DNA of 35,852 nt. It comes from Motilibacter aurantiacus (GTDB lineage: Bacteria; Actinomycetota; Actinomycetes; Motilibacterales; Motilibacteraceae). Below the pieces are notes generated by a model that saw only the letters and a list, made by a program, of their open reading frames with translations, searched no databases and was not told the DNA's origin. Position 1 is the first letter of the stretch. Every line of letters starts with the position of its first letter. Location: contig NZ_JAANNO010000007.1 of NCBI RefSeq assembly GCF_011250645.1, positions 34,765-70,616 on the forward strand, in the 5' to 3' direction. Of the stretch, positions 7,496 through 30,706 are shown in pieces. The position numbers and the translations under genes are program-made.

Positions 7496-7529
7496 GAGCG
7501 TCACACCCCAGGCGGGGTGTGGCGCTCTT
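7496..7529. terminator. Bidirectional terminator between the beta-xylosidase and ackA genes
   Basis: A 15-bp stem with one G-U pair and a 4-base loop (AGGC) begins about 20 bases after the GH3 stop. It includes the last codons and stop of ackA, which runs the other way. It has little U-tract, as is common in actinobacteria, and probably ends transcripts from both sides. Confidence 0.75.
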
Positions 7530-8652
7530 CCGCGTCCGCGCCCGGTGCGGCTTCCCCGGCCGCCGCCCGCACGGACCGGGCCATCTCGATGTCCTCCCGG
7601 GCGCCGACGACGAGCGTCCGCACGGTGGCGCCGCCAGCGCTGACGTCCCGGTCGCCGCGCCCCTGCGCCACCGCGTCGGGGTCGACCCGGATGCCGAGCG
7701 CCTCCAGCTGCCCGAGGTCGACCAGCCCGGGCGCGTGCTCGCCGATGCCGCCGGTGAGCACCACGGCGTCGGCCCCCCAGGCCGAGGCGAGCATCGCGCC
7801 GAGCTCCCGGCGCAGCCGGTGGTTCCACACCTCGAGCGCCAGCCGGGCGCTCTCGTCCCCCGCCGCGGCCGCCGCCGCTATGTCCCGCGTGTCGCCGCTC
7901 GTGCCGCTCAGCCCGGCCAGCCCGCCCCCGCGCTCGATCCCGGCCGCCAGCCGGTCGACCGAGAGCCCGCCCTCCTGCAGCAGCCACAGCATCAGGCCCG
8001 GGTCGACCGAGCCGCTGCGGGTGCGCATCACCAGGCCCTCGGAGGGGGTGAAGCCCATCGTCGTGTCGACCGACCGGCCGTCCCGCACGGCGCACAGCGA
8101 CGAGCCCGAGCCCAGGTGGCAGGTCACGAGCCGCAGCTGCTCCACAGGGCGCCCGAGCAGCTGGGCGGCGCGGCGGGAGGCGTACGCGTGCGACAGGCCG
8201 TGGAAGCCGTAGCGCCGCAGCCCCCAGCGCTCCCGCCACTGCGCGGGCAGGGCGTAGGTGTGCGCGGCGACGGGCAGCGTCGCGTGGAACGCCGTGTCGA
8301 AGCAGGCGTACGTCGGGGTGTCGGGCAGCGCCCGGCGGACCGCGCTCACCCCGGCCAGCGAGCGCGGCTGGTGCAGCGGGGCCAGCGCTGTCAGCCCGGT
8401 CAGGCGCTGCTCCTCGGCCTCGTCGATGCGGGCGGCGTCGGTGCGGGTGCCGCCGTGGACGAACCGGTGCGCCACGGCCACCGGAGCCGTGGCCAGCCCG
8501 GCGAGGAAGGTCTCGATGCCGGCGGTGTCGCGCGCCCCCTCCCAGCGCTCGAGGCCGGACTCGGCGACGATCTCGTCGCGCTCGTCGAGGAGGGACAGCT
8601 TCAGGCTGCTCGAGCCGGCGTTGACGACGAGCAGCGGGGCGAGGTCGTTCAC
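7501..8652 (-). CDS. ackA: Acetate kinase
   Basis: Interconverts acetyl phosphate plus ADP and acetate plus ATP in the cytoplasm. The 383 residues carry the family motifs: NAGSSSLK near the N-terminus, HRFVHGGT, HLGSGSSL, the stretch GFTPSEGLVMRTRSG, and LTGGIGEHAP near the C-terminus. The GTG at 8652 is preferred over the GTG at 8685 because it starts the protein just before the conserved LLVVNAGSSS, and a TACCGT -10-like hexamer at 8686-8691 would place the transcript start between the two. No phosphotransacetylase gene is beside it. The C-terminal residues HTPPGV are encoded inside the terminator hairpin. Confidence 0.93.
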   Translation of the reverse strand: MNDLAPLLVVNAGSSSLKLSLLDERDEIVAESGLERWEGARDTAGIETFLAGLATAPVAVAHRFVHGGTRTDAARIDEAEEQRLTGLTALAPLHQPRSLAGVSAVRRALPDTPTYACFDTAFHATLPVAAHTYALPAQWRERWGLRRYGFHGLSHAYASRRAAQLLGRPVEQLRLVTCHLGSGSSLCAVRDGRSVDTTMGFTPSEGLVMRTRSGSVDPGLMLWLLQEGGLSVDRLAAGIERGGGLAGLSGTSGDTRDIAAAAAAGDESARLALEVWNHRLRRELGAMLASAWGADAVVLTGGIGEHAPGLVDLGQLEALGIRVDPDAVAQGRGDRDVSAGGATVRTLVVGAREDIEMARSVRAAAGEAAPGADAEERHTPPGV

Positions 8653-8734
8653 GCCCCCAGTCTGCTCACTGGGCCGGGCGATCACACGGTACGAAGGGCC
8701 TGTCCGCGGGCGGGGGATCGTTCGGCCCGAGCGG

Positions 8735-9142
8735 TCAGGGCAGCAGGCCGGCCCGGCGGGCCGCGTCGACCGCGGCCGCGCTCGTGCGCACGCCCAGCTT
8801 GCGCCGGGCCGCGACGAGGTGCTGGGCGACGGTGTTCGGGGCGAGGCCGAGCCGCGCGGCGGCGCCGGTCCCGGTGGAGCCCGCGGCGAGCAGCGAGAGG
8901 ATCTCGAGCTCGCGGCCGGTCAGGCGGACGGTGCCGTTGGTCCCGGTGCGGGCGGCGCCCTGCAGGCGGGTGAGCTCGTCGGCGGCGAGCAGCGCGACGC
9001 GGCCGCCGTTCGGGCTCTCCAGCGTGAGGCTGAGCCGGCCGGCGGCAACCTCGTCGAGGAGCGCGCCCCAGCTGTCCGGCGGCAGCGGGGAGCCCCCGCG
9101 CACCCCGTCCGCGTCGGCGTCGCGCGTGCCGGGCTCAGCCAT
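8735..9142 (-). CDS. Small LuxR-type HTH transcription regulator
   Basis: A 135-residue protein with a C-terminal LuxR/GerE helix-turn-helix: LTGRELEILSLLAAGSTG, then ARLGLAPNTVAQHLVAARRKL. No receiver or sensor domain is recognisable in the first 70 residues (ELTRLQGAARTG precedes the HTH), so the signal it reads is unknown. The ATG at 9142 is preceded by GGAG at about 10 bases; a TTG one codon upstream is less likely. It lies 82 bases upstream of ackA on the same strand and could regulate it or share its transcript, which is inference from position only. Confidence 0.8.
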   Translation of the reverse strand: MAEPGTRDADADGVRGGSPLPPDSWGALLDEVAAGRLSLTLESPNGGRVALLAADELTRLQGAARTGTNGTVRLTGRELEILSLLAAGSTGTGAAARLGLAPNTVAQHLVAARRKLGVRTSAAAVDAARRAGLLP

Positions 9143-9288
9143 CAAGAGGGCTCCATCCAGGGCCGGAGAACTGCAGTGCTGGCGTTCCTCGAGAATCGCC
9201 TGGGGAACCGTAGCAACTTCAGGGGTACCGTGCGATCATCTAAGCAGCCTGTGCTAGTGCGCCCGCACCAATGCTCCGACACGTGAAG

Positions 9289-9317
9289 GCCCCCCGCAGG
9301 AAACCACGGGGGGCTTT
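9289..9317. terminator. Terminator after the cheB-R-Y-X-Y operon
   Basis: An 8-bp G/C stem (GCCCCCCG and its complement) with a 10-base loop lies 48 bases past the last che operon gene on the minus strand. After one mismatch the stem extends with A-T and G-C pairs. It also has a short T run on the plus strand, so it could end transcripts in either direction. The remaining 9143-9364 region shows no gene that I can support. Confidence 0.7.
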
Positions 9318-9364
9318 CGCGTACGAATGTCGGGGCAAAGCGCCCCGTCTCCTCGTGCGATTGG

Positions 9365-9847
9365 TCACGCGAGCACGATGGAGATGCGCCCCTTGCCGTA
9401 GCCCGCGACATCCACTCCGAGGTCGAGCCGGCGCCCGAACGCGCGCAGGATCGCGGAGATGTCGTTCGGGGGCGCCTCCCCCAAGCCGTACGTCGCGTAC
9501 AGCTTGACGTGCGGCTGCCCTTCGGCGTTGAACAAAGACGCGAGAACGTTCAGCACCTCGTCGAGGTTCTCCTTGATCGAGGTCGGGAGTTCCCTGTCCT
9601 CGATGCAGGCCTCCGCCCCACCCACCGGCACCAGCCCGATCGCCGCACCCGCGAAGGCCGAGAGGGACAGGTCGGTCACGATGACCGCGGCCGTCCCCAG
9701 CGAGTCGTCGACGTAGACGGCGATGCTCACGGGGTCGGTCGGGGAGGGGACCACCGGCTCGCCGGGCGAGAGGGTGATGTCCCGGAAGAGCAGGCCGCCG
9801 AGAGCGTCCCGGACGTCCTTCTCGTTCGGCAGCAGGCTGATGGCCAT
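9365..9847 (-). CDS. CheX/CheC-like chemotaxis protein of unknown exact role
   Basis: A 160-residue protein ending the che operon, 61 bases after cheY2, with its own AAGGAG ribosome site. I do not recognise a named family with certainty. Its layout resembles CheX/CheC phosphatases: a beta-rich stretch (SIAVYVDDSLGTAAVIVTDL), an alanine-rich helix (LSAFAGAAIGLVP), then a helix ENLDEVLNVLASLFN. That helix keeps the E-x2-N pair (Glu97, Asn100) used by CheC/CheX/FliY phosphatases, with Glu93 where Asp or Ser is usual. Location next to a canonical CheX suggests a divergent second phosphatase or a CheY-binding scaffold. The CheX relation is inference. Confidence 0.6.
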   Translation of the reverse strand: MAISLLPNEKDVRDALGGLLFRDITLSPGEPVVPSPTDPVSIAVYVDDSLGTAAVIVTDLSLSAFAGAAIGLVPVGGAEACIEDRELPTSIKENLDEVLNVLASLFNAEGQPHVKLYATYGLGEAPPNDISAILRAFGRRLDLGVDVAGYGKGRISIVLA

Positions 9848-9908
9848 TGTCCGAGATCTCCTTGTGTCTAGGGGCCGGCGAGGGAGGGCGCGGCCGTAGC
9901 TTCCGGTA

Positions 9909-10271
9909 CTAGTCGAGCACCGGCTCGAGGGCCTCCCGGAAGGCCTCGGGCGTGAAGGGCTTGGCGATGAGGAAGAGCGCGCCGGAGTTGGCCGCCCGCT
10001 CGCGCATCTCGGGCGAGCCCTCGGAGGTGACGAACCCGAAGCTCACGGTCGAGCCGCTGGCGCGCAGCCGGTCGAGCAGCTCGATGCCGGTCATGTTCGG
10101 CATGTTCCAGTCGCTGAGGACCAGGTCCGGCTCCTCGCTCTGGACCTTGCTGAACGCGTCGGCGCCGTCGACGGCCTCGACGAGGTCGTGGCCGGAGAAG
10201 CCGGCCTGGCGCAGCGTGCGGGTGACGATCTGCCGCATCACCTTGCTGTCGTCGGCGATGAGGATCTTCAT
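9909..10271 (-). CDS. cheY: CheY-type response regulator (second copy)
   Basis: A stand-alone receiver domain of 120 residues that should carry the phosphoryl signal from CheA to the flagellar switch or act as a phosphate sink. The acidic pair is Asp7-Asp8, the phospho-acceptor is Asp54 in SDWNMP, the switch Thr is in FGFVTSEG and the conserved Lys is in LIAKPF. The ATG overlaps the cheX stop by four bases (ATGA), so the two are coupled. It differs clearly in sequence from the CheY at 10729-11124, so the two copies probably have different jobs. Confidence 0.93.
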   Translation of the reverse strand: MKILIADDSKVMRQIVTRTLRQAGFSGHDLVEAVDGADAFSKVQSEEPDLVLSDWNMPNMTGIELLDRLRASGSTVSFGFVTSEGSPEMRERAANSGALFLIAKPFTPEAFREALEPVLD

Positions 10272-10732
10272 GACGTGGCTCCTTCCGTGGAGGTCGAGGA
10301 CCAGACGGTGATCTCGACGTGCTGGCCCAGCCACTCGAGCGCGGCCTGGGCGACGATCTCTGCGCCGCGGCTGGCGACGTGCGCGGTGCCGTGGGCGACG
10401 ACGGGGAGCGACAGCGAGCTGGGTCCGGGCAGCACGCTCTTCACGTTCCCCCCGACGATGTTCACAAGCTCGCCGACGGCGTCGTCGACGTCCCCCGGCT
10501 CGAGGCCCGCAGGGTCCATCTGCAGAAGCGCGCTTCCAACGTCCTGCGCGGTCCGCGCGCTCATCGAGATGACGACGACGCCGTTCCACTCGCCGGCGAT
10601 GGAGACGCTCGCGGTCACCTCCGCAGGGTCGCCGACCCCGGGGATCGACGGCGTCGGCTCCGAGCCGAGGTAGGACGTCCAGAGGTCGCCGGCGATGGCG
10701 AGCAGGTCGTCGACGGCAAGGGTGGCGGTCAT
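10268..10732 (-). CDS. cheX: CheX-type CheY-P phosphatase
   Basis: A 154-residue protein expected to dephosphorylate CheY-P and so end the signal. It carries the CheC/CheX/FliY phosphatase signature D-x3-E-x2-N in DDAVGELVNIVGGN (Asp84, Glu88, Asn91). The rest has the alternating beta and alpha pattern of CheX, for example SVSIAGEWNGVVVISMS. It overlaps the CheY genes on both sides by ATGA tetranucleotides, so it is translated together with both possible substrates. No CheZ is seen, so this is the obvious phosphatase of the system. Confidence 0.88.
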   Translation of the reverse strand: MTATLAVDDLLAIAGDLWTSYLGSEPTPSIPGVGDPAEVTASVSIAGEWNGVVVISMSARTAQDVGSALLQMDPAGLEPGDVDDAVGELVNIVGGNVKSVLPGPSSLSLPVVAHGTAHVASRGAEIVAQAALEWLGQHVEITVWSSTSTEGATS

Positions 10733-11124
10733 GCGGTCACCTCCGCGCTGACGAGGCCGAGCAACGCGAGCTTGTCGGCGATCGCGTCGGCCGTGAACGG
10801 CTTGATCACGTACTCGTGCGCCCCGGCGGCGAGCGCGCGCACGATGTTGCCGTGCTCGCTCTCCGTCGTGACCATCATGAGGGTGACGTTGCGGTACTCG
10901 TCGCGCTTGCCGACCTGCTTGATGAACGTGAGCCCGTCCATCACCGGCATGTTCCAGTCGACGAGGCAAAGGACAGGGGTGTCGCCCTCCGCGTGCAGGG
11001 CGTCCAACGTGTCGAGCGCCTCCTGGCCGTTGCCGGCCTCGGAGACGGTGAATCCCTGCCCGACGAGAATGCGGCCAAGGATCGTCCGCATGGCCCGCGA
11101 GTCGTCAATGACGAGAGCGCGCAT
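10729..11124 (-). CDS. cheY: CheY-type response regulator (first copy)
   Basis: A 131-residue single receiver domain. Asp7-Asp8 form the acidic pocket, Asp56 in LVDWNMP is the phospho-acceptor, MMVTTESE holds the switch Thr and YVIKPF the conserved Lys. The ATG at 11124 has an AAGGAG site seven bases upstream; longer in-frame starts inside cheR lack one. It starts one base after the cheR stop and overlaps cheX by four bases. Confidence 0.94.
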   Translation of the reverse strand: MRALVIDDSRAMRTILGRILVGQGFTVSEAGNGQEALDTLDALHAEGDTPVLCLVDWNMPVMDGLTFIKQVGKRDEYRNVTLMMVTTESEHGNIVRALAAGAHEYVIKPFTADAIADKLALLGLVSAEVTA

Positions 11125-11125
11125 G

Positions 11126-11968
11126 TCAGGCTCCTTTACTTCCGATGAATTTTGCCGGTCGATGGACGGGTGCGCCGGCGACGAGGACCCGCTCCCACGA
11201 GTCATCGACACCGAGAGTGGTCTCGGCTCCCCCGAGCAGCAGGCATCCGCTCGGCTTGAGAGTTCCGGCGACCCGTCGCAGGATCGAACGCTTGGTCGCC
11301 GTGTCGAAGTAGATCAGGACGTTGCGCAGCAGGACGATGTCGAATTGCGGCATCACCGGGAACGGCGCCGCGAGGTTGAGCCGCTGGAATTTGATGTTGG
11401 CCTTGAGCTCCGGCGACACCTCCCATTCGGTGCCCCTGCGCGTGAAGTGCTTCACGAGAAGCGGCGCGGGGAGCCCGCGGTTGACCTCGAGCTGGGAATA
11501 GCGCCCGGCCCGCGCCCGCGCGAGCATCTCCTCGGAGATGTCGGTCCCGAGGATCTCGAAGCGCCAGCCCGCGGCCCGCACCTTGTCCTGGATGCTCATC
11601 GCGACCGTGTACGCCTCCTGGCCGCTGGAGGAGGCGGCCGACCAGATGCGCAGCACCCGGTCGGGGCGCCCGCTGCGCAGGATCTCGGGCACGATGTGGT
11701 CCGACACCGCCCGGAACGGCGCGCCGTCCCGGAACCACGAGGTCTCGTTGGTGGTGAGGGCGTCGACGATCTTCGCCTGCTCACGCGGGTCGCGCGAGGC
11801 TCGCAGCCCGTCGACGTACGCACTGACGTTGGGCTTGCCGGCCGCGCGGGCGAGCGGGGTCAGCCGCGCCTCGACGAGGTACTCCTTGCCGGGCTCGAGG
11901 ACGATCGCCGCCTCGCGGTAGACGAGCTCGCGGACGAAGTCGAACGCGGTCGTCGCGAGTGTGCTCAT
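11126..11968 (-). CDS. cheR: Chemotaxis protein methyltransferase CheR
   Basis: Methylates glutamates on chemoreceptors with S-adenosylmethionine, the adaptation arm opposed to CheB. The 280 residues have the small helical N-domain (FVRELVYREAAIVLEPGKE, then LVEARL) and a Rossmann methyltransferase domain with RIWSAASSSGQEAYTVAMS as the SAM-binding region, then ILGTDISEEML and FDIVLLRNVLIYFD. Its ATG overlaps the cheB stop in an ATGA tetranucleotide. Substrates would include receptors like the one at 16818-18425. Confidence 0.95.
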   Translation of the reverse strand: MSTLATTAFDFVRELVYREAAIVLEPGKEYLVEARLTPLARAAGKPNVSAYVDGLRASRDPREQAKIVDALTTNETSWFRDGAPFRAVSDHIVPEILRSGRPDRVLRIWSAASSSGQEAYTVAMSIQDKVRAAGWRFEILGTDISEEMLARARAGRYSQLEVNRGLPAPLLVKHFTRRGTEWEVSPELKANIKFQRLNLAAPFPVMPQFDIVLLRNVLIYFDTATKRSILRRVAGTLKPSGCLLLGGAETTLGVDDSWERVLVAGAPVHRPAKFIGSKGA

Positions 11969-13149
11969 GGTCGTGTTCCCCTGGTCAACGCAGCCTCCGT
12001 GGTGGCGCTAGCGGGCCGGGGGCGCCCGGCCAGGCCTATCGAGTCGACGATCGCGCCGGGCACCGCGTCCAGCGGCAGGACAGCGTCGGCGAGCCCCGCC
12101 GCGGTGACGGCGCCGGGCATGCCCCAGACCACGGACGTCGCCTGGTCCTGGGCGAGAACCCGCGCCCCACGGGCCTTGAGCGTCTGCGCACCGGCCTTGC
12201 CGTCGCTGCCCATGCCGGTCAGGACGACGGCCAGCACGCTGCCGCCGAAGGTCGCGGCGACGCTGCGGAAGAGCACGTCGACTGCGGGCCGGCAGAAGTT
12301 CTCCGGCGGAGCGGTCGTCAGGTGGGCGAAGAGGCCGGTGCCCCGGCGTACCACCTCGAGGTGCCGGTCGCCGGGTGCGATGAGCACCCGGCCGGGGACC
12401 AGCTGATCGTCCTCGGCCGCCTCGCGCACCTCCAGCGCGCTCGAGCGGTCGAGCCGCTCGGCCAGCAGCCGGGTGAAGATCGGCGGCATGTGCTGGACGA
12501 CCGCGACGGGCACCGGGAGGGTGCCGGGCAGGCCGGACAGGACGCGGGCCAGCGCTTCGGGCCCTCCCGTCGACGAGCCGATCACGAGAATGTCCGGCCG
12601 CTTGGCCGCCGGGGTCAGCCGGGCCACCGGGGCGGCGGCGCCGGGACGCCGTGCGCCCGTGCCGACGGCTCCCGCGGGCGCGCCCAGCGTCCCCGTGCGG
12701 CGCCCGGGTGCCGCGCCCGCGCCGCCCGGCTGCTGCGGGCCCTGCCCGCAGAGCGAGCGCAGCTTCGGCACCAGCTGCTCGCGCACGCTGCGCACGGACT
12801 GGGTCAGCGCGGTCGTGTTCGAGGGCTTGGTCACGTAGTCGCTGGCGCCCAGCGAGAGCGCCTCGATCGTCGCCGACGCGCCCCGCTCGGTGAGCGTGCT
12901 GAACATGATCACCGGCGTCCGCGGGTGCGTCTGCCGGAGCCGCTTCAGCGTGCCGAGCCCGTCGAGCTCGGGCATCTCGATGTCCAGGGTCACCGCGTCC
13001 GGGGAGAGCTCGACGAGCTTGTCCAGCGCGATCCGGCCGTTCTGCGCCGTGCCGACCACGCTGATGCCGGGCTCGGCGTCGAGGACCTGGGCGACGATGC
13101 GCCGGACGACGGCGGAGTCGTCCACGACGAGCACTCGTATGTCACCCAC
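11965..13149 (-). CDS. cheB: Chemotaxis response regulator methylesterase CheB
   Basis: Removes methyl groups from chemoreceptors when phosphorylated by CheA. The 394 residues contain an N-terminal receiver (Asp10-Asp11, acceptor Asp56 in LDIEMPELDG, KPS lysine), a Gly/Ala/Pro-rich linker (about 140-185) and the methylesterase domain. Catalytic elements are Ser in GSSTGGPEAL, His in QHMPP and Asp in LTGMGSDGKAG. The GTG start at 13149 gives VGDIRVLVVDDS, the expected receiver beginning, after a purine-rich GGGGTGG. It heads the che operon and has a sigma-28 type promoter candidate 53 bases upstream. Confidence 0.95.
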   Translation of the reverse strand: MGDIRVLVVDDSAVVRRIVAQVLDAEPGISVVGTAQNGRIALDKLVELSPDAVTLDIEMPELDGLGTLKRLRQTHPRTPVIMFSTLTERGASATIEALSLGASDYVTKPSNTTALTQSVRSVREQLVPKLRSLCGQGPQQPGGAGAAPGRRTGTLGAPAGAVGTGARRPGAAAPVARLTPAAKRPDILVIGSSTGGPEALARVLSGLPGTLPVPVAVVQHMPPIFTRLLAERLDRSSALEVREAAEDDQLVPGRVLIAPGDRHLEVVRRGTGLFAHLTTAPPENFCRPAVDVLFRSVAATFGGSVLAVVLTGMGSDGKAGAQTLKARGARVLAQDQATSVVWGMPGAVTAAGLADAVLPLDAVPGAIVDSIGLAGRPRPASATTEAALTRGTRP

Positions 13150-13201
13150 GGGCCACCCCGTCCTAGTTCGGTTGGTCCGGGCGTTTTCCCGGACCCGCAC
13201 C

Positions 13202-13228
13202 TCATCGGCGCCCGCCGTCATCCCTTGA
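13202..13228 (-). promoter_or_regulatory. Sigma-28 (FliA/WhiG) type promoter of the cheB operon
   Basis: On the minus strand TCAA (13225-13228), exactly 15 bases, then GCCGATGA (13202-13209). The FliA/WhiG consensus is TAAA-N15-GCCGATAA, so the match is 3/4 and 7/8 with ideal spacing. It lies 53 bases upstream of the cheB start. A similar element precedes cheA. Confidence 0.65.
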
Positions 13229-13311
13229 GGTGAACGCCTCCGATGCGTAGTTGCCCGGTCGCGGCCAGTGCACTCCTTGACTCTTACCGCTCGTAGTGGG
13301 AGGAACAGCGG

Positions 13312-29794: not shown

Positions 29795-30706
29795 TCAGGC
29801 CGTGGGCAGCGCCAGCTCCAGCGGCCCGACCAGCGCCTCCCGGTCCTCCTCGCCCAGCAGGTCGGCGACGACCAGCGCGTGCACGGCCCCCGACGCGAGG
29901 TTCCACGTCCCGTACGCGGCGGCCCGCGCGCTCAGCCCCGCCCGGTGCAGTGCGGAGACGGCGAGCAGCTGCGCCGCCGCAGCGCACCGCGTACGCCCGG
30001 ACAGGTGGGCGGCCCAGGACGCCGCGTGCACGGCGACGGCCCACGGCCGGCCGGACCGGCGCGACGCCTCCACCCCGTCGGACAGCCCGGCGAGCCCTCG
30101 GGCGTCCAGCGCGGACAGCCGCGCGAGCAGCGCGCGTACCTGCTCCTCGTTGGGCCCCAGGCAGGGGGCGACGGGCGCCAGCTGCTCCAGGGCGTCCCGC
30201 CAGGGGGAGACGAGCAGCGCGCGAGAGCCGGCCGGCAGCCGAGGCATGGCGTACGCGGCGGCCACCGCGTCGCACACGACCGACACCGCACGCGAAGCGG
30301 TCTCGTCCTGGACGGCCACGCCACCGGCGCGGGACCAGGCCCAGTCGAAGACGTCGGTGCGCAGGCAGGTCAGCAGGTCCTCGAGCCCGCCGATGCCGCT
30401 CACCTCCAGCCGGCGCAGCGCCGCGAGGGTCGCGGGAGCGTCCCCCGCCGTCCCGGCCCCGCTCGAGCCGGTGGCAGGGCCGAGCCCTGCGGCGACGGCG
30501 CGCACGGTGGCGTCGTCCTTTGTCGCACGAGCCAGCTCGGCCCAGGCCTCGGCCCGGTCCTGCTCGGGCCGGGCGGCCGCGGCGAGCGCGGGCAGGTGCT
30601 CGGCGCCGAGGGCGAGCGCGGTGACGAGGACGTCGGCGGCCTCCGCCCCACCCGCGCGACGGATCAGGTCGAACCCGAGGACGGGAGCACTGACCAGGGA
30701 GTACAC
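29795..30706 (-). CDS. Hypothetical protein, 303 residues
   Basis: I do not recognise this family. The protein is Ala/Leu-rich and appears entirely helical and soluble, with no signal peptide, TM helix or known motif. Parts that might be useful for searching are LGFDLIRRAGGAEAADVLV, LTCLRTDVFDWAWSRAGG and HAASWAAHLSGRTRC. The GTG at 30706 has GGAGG eight bases upstream, and third codon positions are G/C-rich, so it is a real gene. It lies downstream of cheA-cheW on the same strand but behind their terminator, with its own leader, so it is probably a separate unit. Confidence 0.75.
   Translation of the reverse strand: MYSLVSAPVLGFDLIRRAGGAEAADVLVTALALGAEHLPALAAAARPEQDRAEAWAELARATKDDATVRAVAAGLGPATGSSGAGTAGDAPATLAALRRLEVSGIGGLEDLLTCLRTDVFDWAWSRAGGVAVQDETASRAVSVVCDAVAAAYAMPRLPAGSRALLVSPWRDALEQLAPVAPCLGPNEEQVRALLARLSALDARGLAGLSDGVEASRRSGRPWAVAVHAASWAAHLSGRTRCAAAAQLLAVSALHRAGLSARAAAYGTWNLASGAVHALVVADLLGEEDREALVGPLELALPTA

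Follow-up and report, generated by a model that had tools for sequence, protein, structure and literature searches.

The window analysed here is a stretch of 35,852 nucleotides from Motilibacter aurantiacus, and all positions are counted from its first letter. We studied a 160-amino-acid protein, for which we use the working label X160, encoded beside chemotaxis (che) genes. The features of the locus, all on the minus strand, are as follows.

9275..9330, minus strand: hairpin, probable transcript end (-33.8 kcal/mol, z -4.94, 0/200 shuffles equally stable)
9365..9847, minus strand: X160, predicted CheC/CheX-superfamily protein (ORF, AlphaFold model, fold comparison, profile match to CheX)
9548..9571, minus strand: codons of E93-N94-L95-D96-E97-V98-L99-N100, with E97 and N100 as the predicted catalytic pair (codons, conservation, CheX alignment)
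9858..9863, minus strand: AAGGAG, probable ribosome-binding site of X160 (direct sequence reading)
9909..10271, minus strand: cheYb, 120 aa, the X160-linked response regulator (Response_reg 5.8e-25, CheY clade, linkage)
10268..10732, minus strand: cheX, canonical, D-x3-E-x2-N (Pfam CheX 1.7e-17, motif, predicted model)
10729..11124, minus strand: cheYa, CheY with Tyr three residues ahead of the KPF Lys (Response_reg, CheY tree)
11126..11968, minus strand: cheR (Pfam CheR 4.2e-53)
11965..13239, minus strand: cheB, 5' end approximate, from the open frame only (frame conserved beside cheR in relatives)

The X160 reading frame runs from an ATG at 9847 to a stop ending at 9365, and its codon-position GC (0.69/0.44/0.94) is the local coding-frame pattern. 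The first-pass annotation of this DNA had placed a 160-residue product at the right coordinates and left the strand unsaid; the plus-strand translation of 9365-9847 was discarded, as it is not X160. The gene order on the minus strand is cheB, cheR, cheYa, cheX, cheYb and X160. X160 is thus the last gene of the run, and the earlier statements that it closes the che operon and follows a canonical CheX (Pfam CheX 1.7e-17) and two CheY proteins (Pfam Response_reg 5.8e-25 and 1.3e-23) both held. The cheX gene overlaps both cheYb and cheYa via ATGA, and 61 bases separate cheYb from X160. Both CheYs retain the Asp in DWNMP, the Thr and the KPF Lys; D54 and K104 of CheYb were numbered by counting along the translation. 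The hairpin lies directly 3' of the X160 stop, has no T run and was absent from the consensus-scan output; it is the probable end of the che transcript. Rfam gave no useful match over the che operon, and a promoter scan found no promoter.

At 31.0-34.8 kb lie CheW and a CheA frame that contains two CheW stretches; the A-W and B-R-Y-X-Y blocks share the window about 18 kb apart. Adjoining cheW, a 303-aa ORF (29795-30706, minus strand) with coding-like GC had no Pfam match up to E 0.001 and is possibly another unannotated chemotaxis-linked protein. On the other side of the operon, a small protein carrying a DNA-binding domain of the LuxR type (GerE; 8735-9145, minus strand) sits between the che genes and ORF 7501-8685, which we take, from its translation alone, to be acetate kinase-like. 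Outside the window, the same genome encodes a second CheA-type kinase (H-kinase_dim match; G000 contig C10:17269-17469).

We predicted the structure of X160 with AlphaFold as a single chain from 54 sequences, and the model reached pLDDT 93.7 and pTM 0.90. Among the 50 PDB entries listed in comparison with this model, 27 CheC/CheX/FliM/FliY entries had Z 9.0-12.5 and the next had Z 3.5, while Foldseek with the model gave E values down to 3.5e-6. Structure prediction against CheX and CheC had been proposed at first pass as the check that could refute the assignment; the matches at Z 9.0-12.5 to superfamily entries ruled out an unrelated fold. By group, Z was 10.4-12.5 for FliM, 10.9 for FliY, 9.6-10.7 for CheC-type and 9.0-10.7 for CheX-type entries, and many of the matches lay within 1-2 Z of one another. 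The best was a FliM middle domain (Z 12.5, rmsd 3.4 over 149 residues); CheX in 3hzh gave Z 10.7 with rmsd 3.9 over 145. As a yardstick, the operon CheX was predicted likewise (37 sequences, pLDDT 89.4), and its model gave Z 14.7-17.7 to CheX-type entries, with Z 17.7 to Borrelia CheX in 3hzh, and 7.4-9.8 to FliM. As judged from the models, X160 belongs to the CheC/CheX/FliY/FliM superfamily (Pfam CheC-like clan). The models also set it apart as a separate branch and no canonical CheX, because its Z values are nearly even across FliM, FliY, CheC and CheX while the operon CheX is close to CheX structures. The description of X160 as CheX-like thus stood for the fold (model) and the catalytic pair (profile, below), but not in the sense of a canonical CheX.

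X160 had no match in Pfam, NCBIfam or PADLOC up to E 10 or in PHROGs up to E 1, and a sequence search of the PDB gave nothing below E 1. The Pfam CheX model (PF13690) matched 1/26 X160 relatives (E 0.23), and the window protein fell below the curated cut-off. Four remote members were scanned with Pfam: L132 reached 26.2 bits to CheX (cut-off 27) and three had no match. A literature search covering titles and abstract openings found no description of the family among the matches listed.

The closest named relative, from Motilibacter deserti, is 96% identical, and a congeneric genome carries a 96% identical copy at the same contig position. The genome of the window has one convincing copy, with a second match at only E 0.26. 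We found X160 in 33/393 genomes of the class (34 before G033 was dropped, with 17/137 genera in that initial search); the G033 match had E 8e-4 over 107 aa at first, then E 0.04 elsewhere in the genome. Searches with a profile built from a pattern-derived set (A3) found it in 15/396 genomes of a phylum sample, own genome included, and in 7/198 genomes of a class sample centred on a Planctomycetales genome, counting the central genome. A pattern-based search of genome contigs yielded 72 loci, mostly from Actinomycetota, a few being MAGs labelled Proteobacteria, Planctomycetes and Myxococcales. Among 72,556 plasmid records one, from a Comamonadaceae strain, carried X160 under the annotation of hypothetical protein. 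These results indicate that X160 is a real, conserved and unnamed branch of a known enzyme superfamily, CheC/CheX. Chemotaxis phosphatases are surveyed by looking for CheZ, CheC and CheX, and the X160 branch could be missed in such counts because it is unmatched by Pfam and NCBIfam models; at least one survey, in the part drawn on here, argues from the absence of these three (PMC10782961).

The motif ENLDEVLN occupies residues 93-100 of X160 and contains E97-x2-N100, the pair that the first reading had pointed out. When the X160 profile was aligned with an operon-type CheX profile by hhalign (probability 58, score 31.2, 126 columns), E97 and N100 fell on the catalytic Glu and Asn of CheX, and the alignment was unguided by the motif. 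In the controls, column shuffles of CheX scored at most 18.3 (n=60), reversed CheX 15.9 and reversed FliM 20.1, and the maximum over all 300 shuffles of five families was 21.0 (a shuffled CheW). Real FliM, CheW, CheR and CheYb profiles scored 11.8-12.5 against X160. The FliM value of 12.5 lies inside its shuffled controls (up to 20.5), and Pfam FliM left X160 unmatched up to E 10; the missing FliM profile match says little because CheX itself fails to match the FliM profile (probability 0.3, P 0.19), so that hhalign also misses this known relationship. Shallower alignments gave the same register with weak support (probability 11.8, P 0.0025), and a pairwise MAFFT alignment of X160 and CheX, in which the motifs were unpaired, was set aside.

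We then counted conservation in 50 relatives from whole-protein searches rather than in A3, because the A3 search used the motif pattern. E97 was kept in 49/50 and N100 in 48/50, at identities to X160 down to 24%; one of the 50, L110, from the Planctomycetales genome at the centre of the class sample, was first found by pattern, and without it the counts are 48/49 and 47/49. The set includes the near-identical L021-L023 and excludes the G910 fragments (L133, L134) and the matches without a locus in G270, G157 and G026, while L118, which has an in-frame stop, was used as a between-stops segment only. Relatives retaining both residues occur across Actinomycetota and in Planctomycetes. N94 was rejected as an invariant residue: it is present in 54/54 members of A3, but the search pattern, [ED]N[LVF][DRY]EV[LC]N[IV], fixed it, and the whole-genome matches from other classes have F 8, C 3, N 1 and A 1 (n=13). 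A further signature, R140, D142 and GYG in the C-terminal part, is found in nearly all members from Actinomycetota.

E93 occupies the position of the invariant Asp of the neighbouring CheX family. The first-pass annotation had singled out this Glu as standing where CheC and CheX have Asp or Ser; this holds against the Asp of CheX, but not as an oddity of X160, since E or D is found there in 29/30 relatives of the class, 13/13 from other classes of the phylum and 5/7 of the planctomycete sample. Position 93 therefore seems to be a loosened but still acidic form of the CheX site rather than an indication of lost catalysis.

Two relatives depart from the pair in different ways. L013 has Gln for N100, which keeps the amide, and its genome has CheA. 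In L029 (genome G065; L165:1495-1989), E97 is replaced by Arg and N100 by Thr; FliM was found in G065, CheA and CheX were not, and no Che gene was found beside L029, where the ORFs, named from their translations rather than by family search, are presumably flagellar-type. On this sequence evidence L029 appears to be a natural relaxed copy, a remnant. G372 also had no CheA or CheX found, yet kept both E97 and N100.

We assessed co-occurrence in the 393 genomes of the class and found CheA (PF02895) in 35 (19/137 genera), CheX (PF13690) in 33 and X160 in 33. X160 occurred together with CheA in 31 genomes and with CheX in 30, and the association with CheA was strong by a test that ignores kinship (Fisher P 3e-39). 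X160 without CheA found was limited to G065 and G372, and G236 had X160 and CheA with no CheX found. G043, G060 and G075 (84-87% complete) had CheA and CheX but no X160 found, suggesting that X160 may be dispensable; G069 had a weak CheA, with no X160, CheX or FliM found. FliM was found in 31/33 X160 genomes, the exceptions being G003 and G026 (each >250 contigs). X160 presence tracks CheA, and G033 has FliM with neither CheA nor X160; X160 is therefore distributed with chemotaxis and not simply with the flagellum.

The gene neighbourhood revealed a constant partner. A CheYb-like gene lies upstream of X160 in 72/72 loci and is the next Che gene in 71/72, although many of these loci are closely related to one another, chiefly those of Nocardioides. 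In L102 the two genes are separated by a CheX-like stretch. Among loci from whole-genome searches, the CheYb-like gene is upstream in 28/29 of the class (the exception being L029) and in 20/20 of L113-L118 and L120-L133. In a FastTree tree of 91 X160-linked CheYs, 59 CheYa and 27 others, 90/91 linked CheYs formed one clade with support 0.93 that contained 0/59 CheYa and none of the others; the lone exception, L100, has a CheY 32% identical to CheYb. CheYb and CheYa differ at 20 listed positions. Three residues ahead of the KPF Lys, at what we take to be the position of E. coli Y106, CheYb has Leu (74/91) and CheYa has Tyr (57/59). X160 is firmly linked to one CheY lineage. CheX lies in the same stretch in 64/72 loci and was not found in 8/72 (stretches up to about 16.5 kb).

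The Comamonadaceae plasmid CP099603.1 carries the CheYb-X160 pair at L199:5610-6468 in a che cluster with an MCP, CheW-type proteins, CheR, CheD and CheB. The 12.4 kb stretch contains no annotated CheX, and the CheX profile was unmatched among the four small proteins tested. The pair is followed by another hypothetical protein (L199:6513-6974), which had no Pfam match.

Taken together, X160 is probably a divergent phosphatase of the CheC/CheX/FliY superfamily with a single active site that serves CheYb, while the canonical CheX would serve CheYa or both. The first-pass suggestion of a second CheY-P phosphatase for one CheY is accordingly the best-supported reading, with E97 and N100 conserved and one CheY lineage attached, and the function itself is what we infer. 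CheX depends on an acidic residue plus an amide (ExxN), as stated in the part of PMC3510030 drawn on here, and in the mechanism outlined in the corresponding part of PMC3035606 the Asn positions a water molecule and the acidic residue forms a pair with the Lys of the receiver. For CheX N99 in 3hzh, PMC3035606 gives a distance of about 6 A between the amide and the point where the phosphoryl group is added. Modelled on this known CheX mechanism, helix 89-106 of X160 would dock on phosphorylated CheYb, E97 could form a salt bridge with CheYb K104, the KPF Lys, and the N100 amide would hold the water that attacks the D54 phosphoryl group in line. A dedicated CheYb-P phosphatase with CheX chemistry would be the most likely account and the most economical one. 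The choice of CheYb over CheYa as substrate is suggested by gene linkage alone, and gene neighbourhood alone does not prove substrate choice. Several points go against this reading: the top structural matches are FliM middle domains, not CheX; X160 has neither the G-G-x2-K nor the downstream Pro, both invariant in the operon CheX family; G043, G060 and G075 have CheA and CheX with no X160 found; G372 kept E97 and N100 with neither CheA nor CheX found; and the profile match is weak when the alignments are shallower.

It is unlikely, though still the strongest competitor, that X160 dephosphorylates CheYa and CheYb alike, so that the operon would hold two overlapping phosphatases. Its catalytic pair is identical to that of CheX, and CheX shares the stretch in 64/72 loci, as such an overlap would have it; however, CheYa and CheYb are distinct lineages, and the fixed pairing with CheYb persists in the 8/72 loci whose stretches yielded no CheX and on the betaproteobacterial plasmid, whose 12.4 kb stretch has none annotated. 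We give still less credit to the idea that X160 binds CheYb-P without hydrolysis, as a sink, carrier or localisation factor that retains the E/N pair for binding. X160 lacks the Gly-Gly and Lys found after the catalytic Asn in CheX, and its R140/D142/GYG signature has no known role. Both points would suit a binder, but retention of E97 and N100 down to 24% identity is easier to explain by catalysis than by binding alone, and the sole exception in a CheA-bearing genome (L013, Gln) retains the amide. The catalytically altered CheY-binding factor offered at first pass is disfavoured for a similar reason, as both catalytic residues are kept and the change at E93 is conservative. That X160 is a motor (C-ring) part akin to the FliM middle domain, docking CheYb at the switch, is very improbable: in structure it does match FliM middle domains best (Z up to 12.5), and the G065 remnant lies amid flagellar-type ORFs, but 31/33 X160 genomes of the class sample have a separate FliM, X160 tracks CheA rather than FliM (G033 has FliM, no CheA and no X160), and the profile favours CheX (31.2) over FliM (12.5), a comparison of little weight since it also misses the CheX-FliM kinship.

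Returning to X160 as a phosphatase for CheYb, we tentatively raise a wider possibility, that CheYb and X160 form a self-contained, portable regulator-phosphatase module. Such a module would add another branch, for output or as a phosphate sink, which has an off-switch of its own and does not depend on CheX. Chemosensory systems of Actinomycetota, Planctomycetes and some Proteobacteria would have inherited it in one piece, and it would have been overlooked as X160 escapes family models. If each CheY has its own phosphatase, a single kinase could send out two signals that last for different times, and X160 makes it possible to test directly why two CheYs are retained in many actinobacterial systems.

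Compared with known systems, X160 resembles CheX (Borrelia burgdorferi 3hzh, Thermotoga 1xko) in its overall predicted fold, in the single E-x2-N on a long helix of the second half, in its place beside CheY in a che operon, and in catalytic residues that share the profile register. CheX crystals show a dimer. Unlike CheX, X160 has E or D rather than D four residues ahead of the Glu, no Gly-Gly or Lys past the Asn, a helix at 128-135 where the CheX model shows short strands and, among Actinomycetota, a conserved R140, D142 and GYG not shared with CheX. The D-x3-E-x2-N-x2-G-G-x2-K context of the operon CheX family is not present in X160, and its Z to CheX-type entries is 9.0-10.7 against 14.7-17.7 for the operon CheX. 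FliM is a motor protein that is not known to carry E-x2-N, and the genome has a separate FliM gene. CheC and FliY carry two E-x2-N sites, whereas X160 has one (97-100) and none in its N-terminal helix. With these two proteins it shares the fold (Z 9.6-10.9) and the same kind of catalytic pair, as described in the part of PMC3035606 drawn on here. The F5 chemosensory class has a CheA with a duplicated CheW domain and the order AW...BR, according to the relevant parts of PMC10746217 and PMC10782961. F5 systems are described for later actinobacterial classes in PMC10746217, where the portion of the text used here names CheX and no second relative; X160 may be counted as CheX in the figure or tables of that paper, and it would fit the F5 setting of these classes as presented there.
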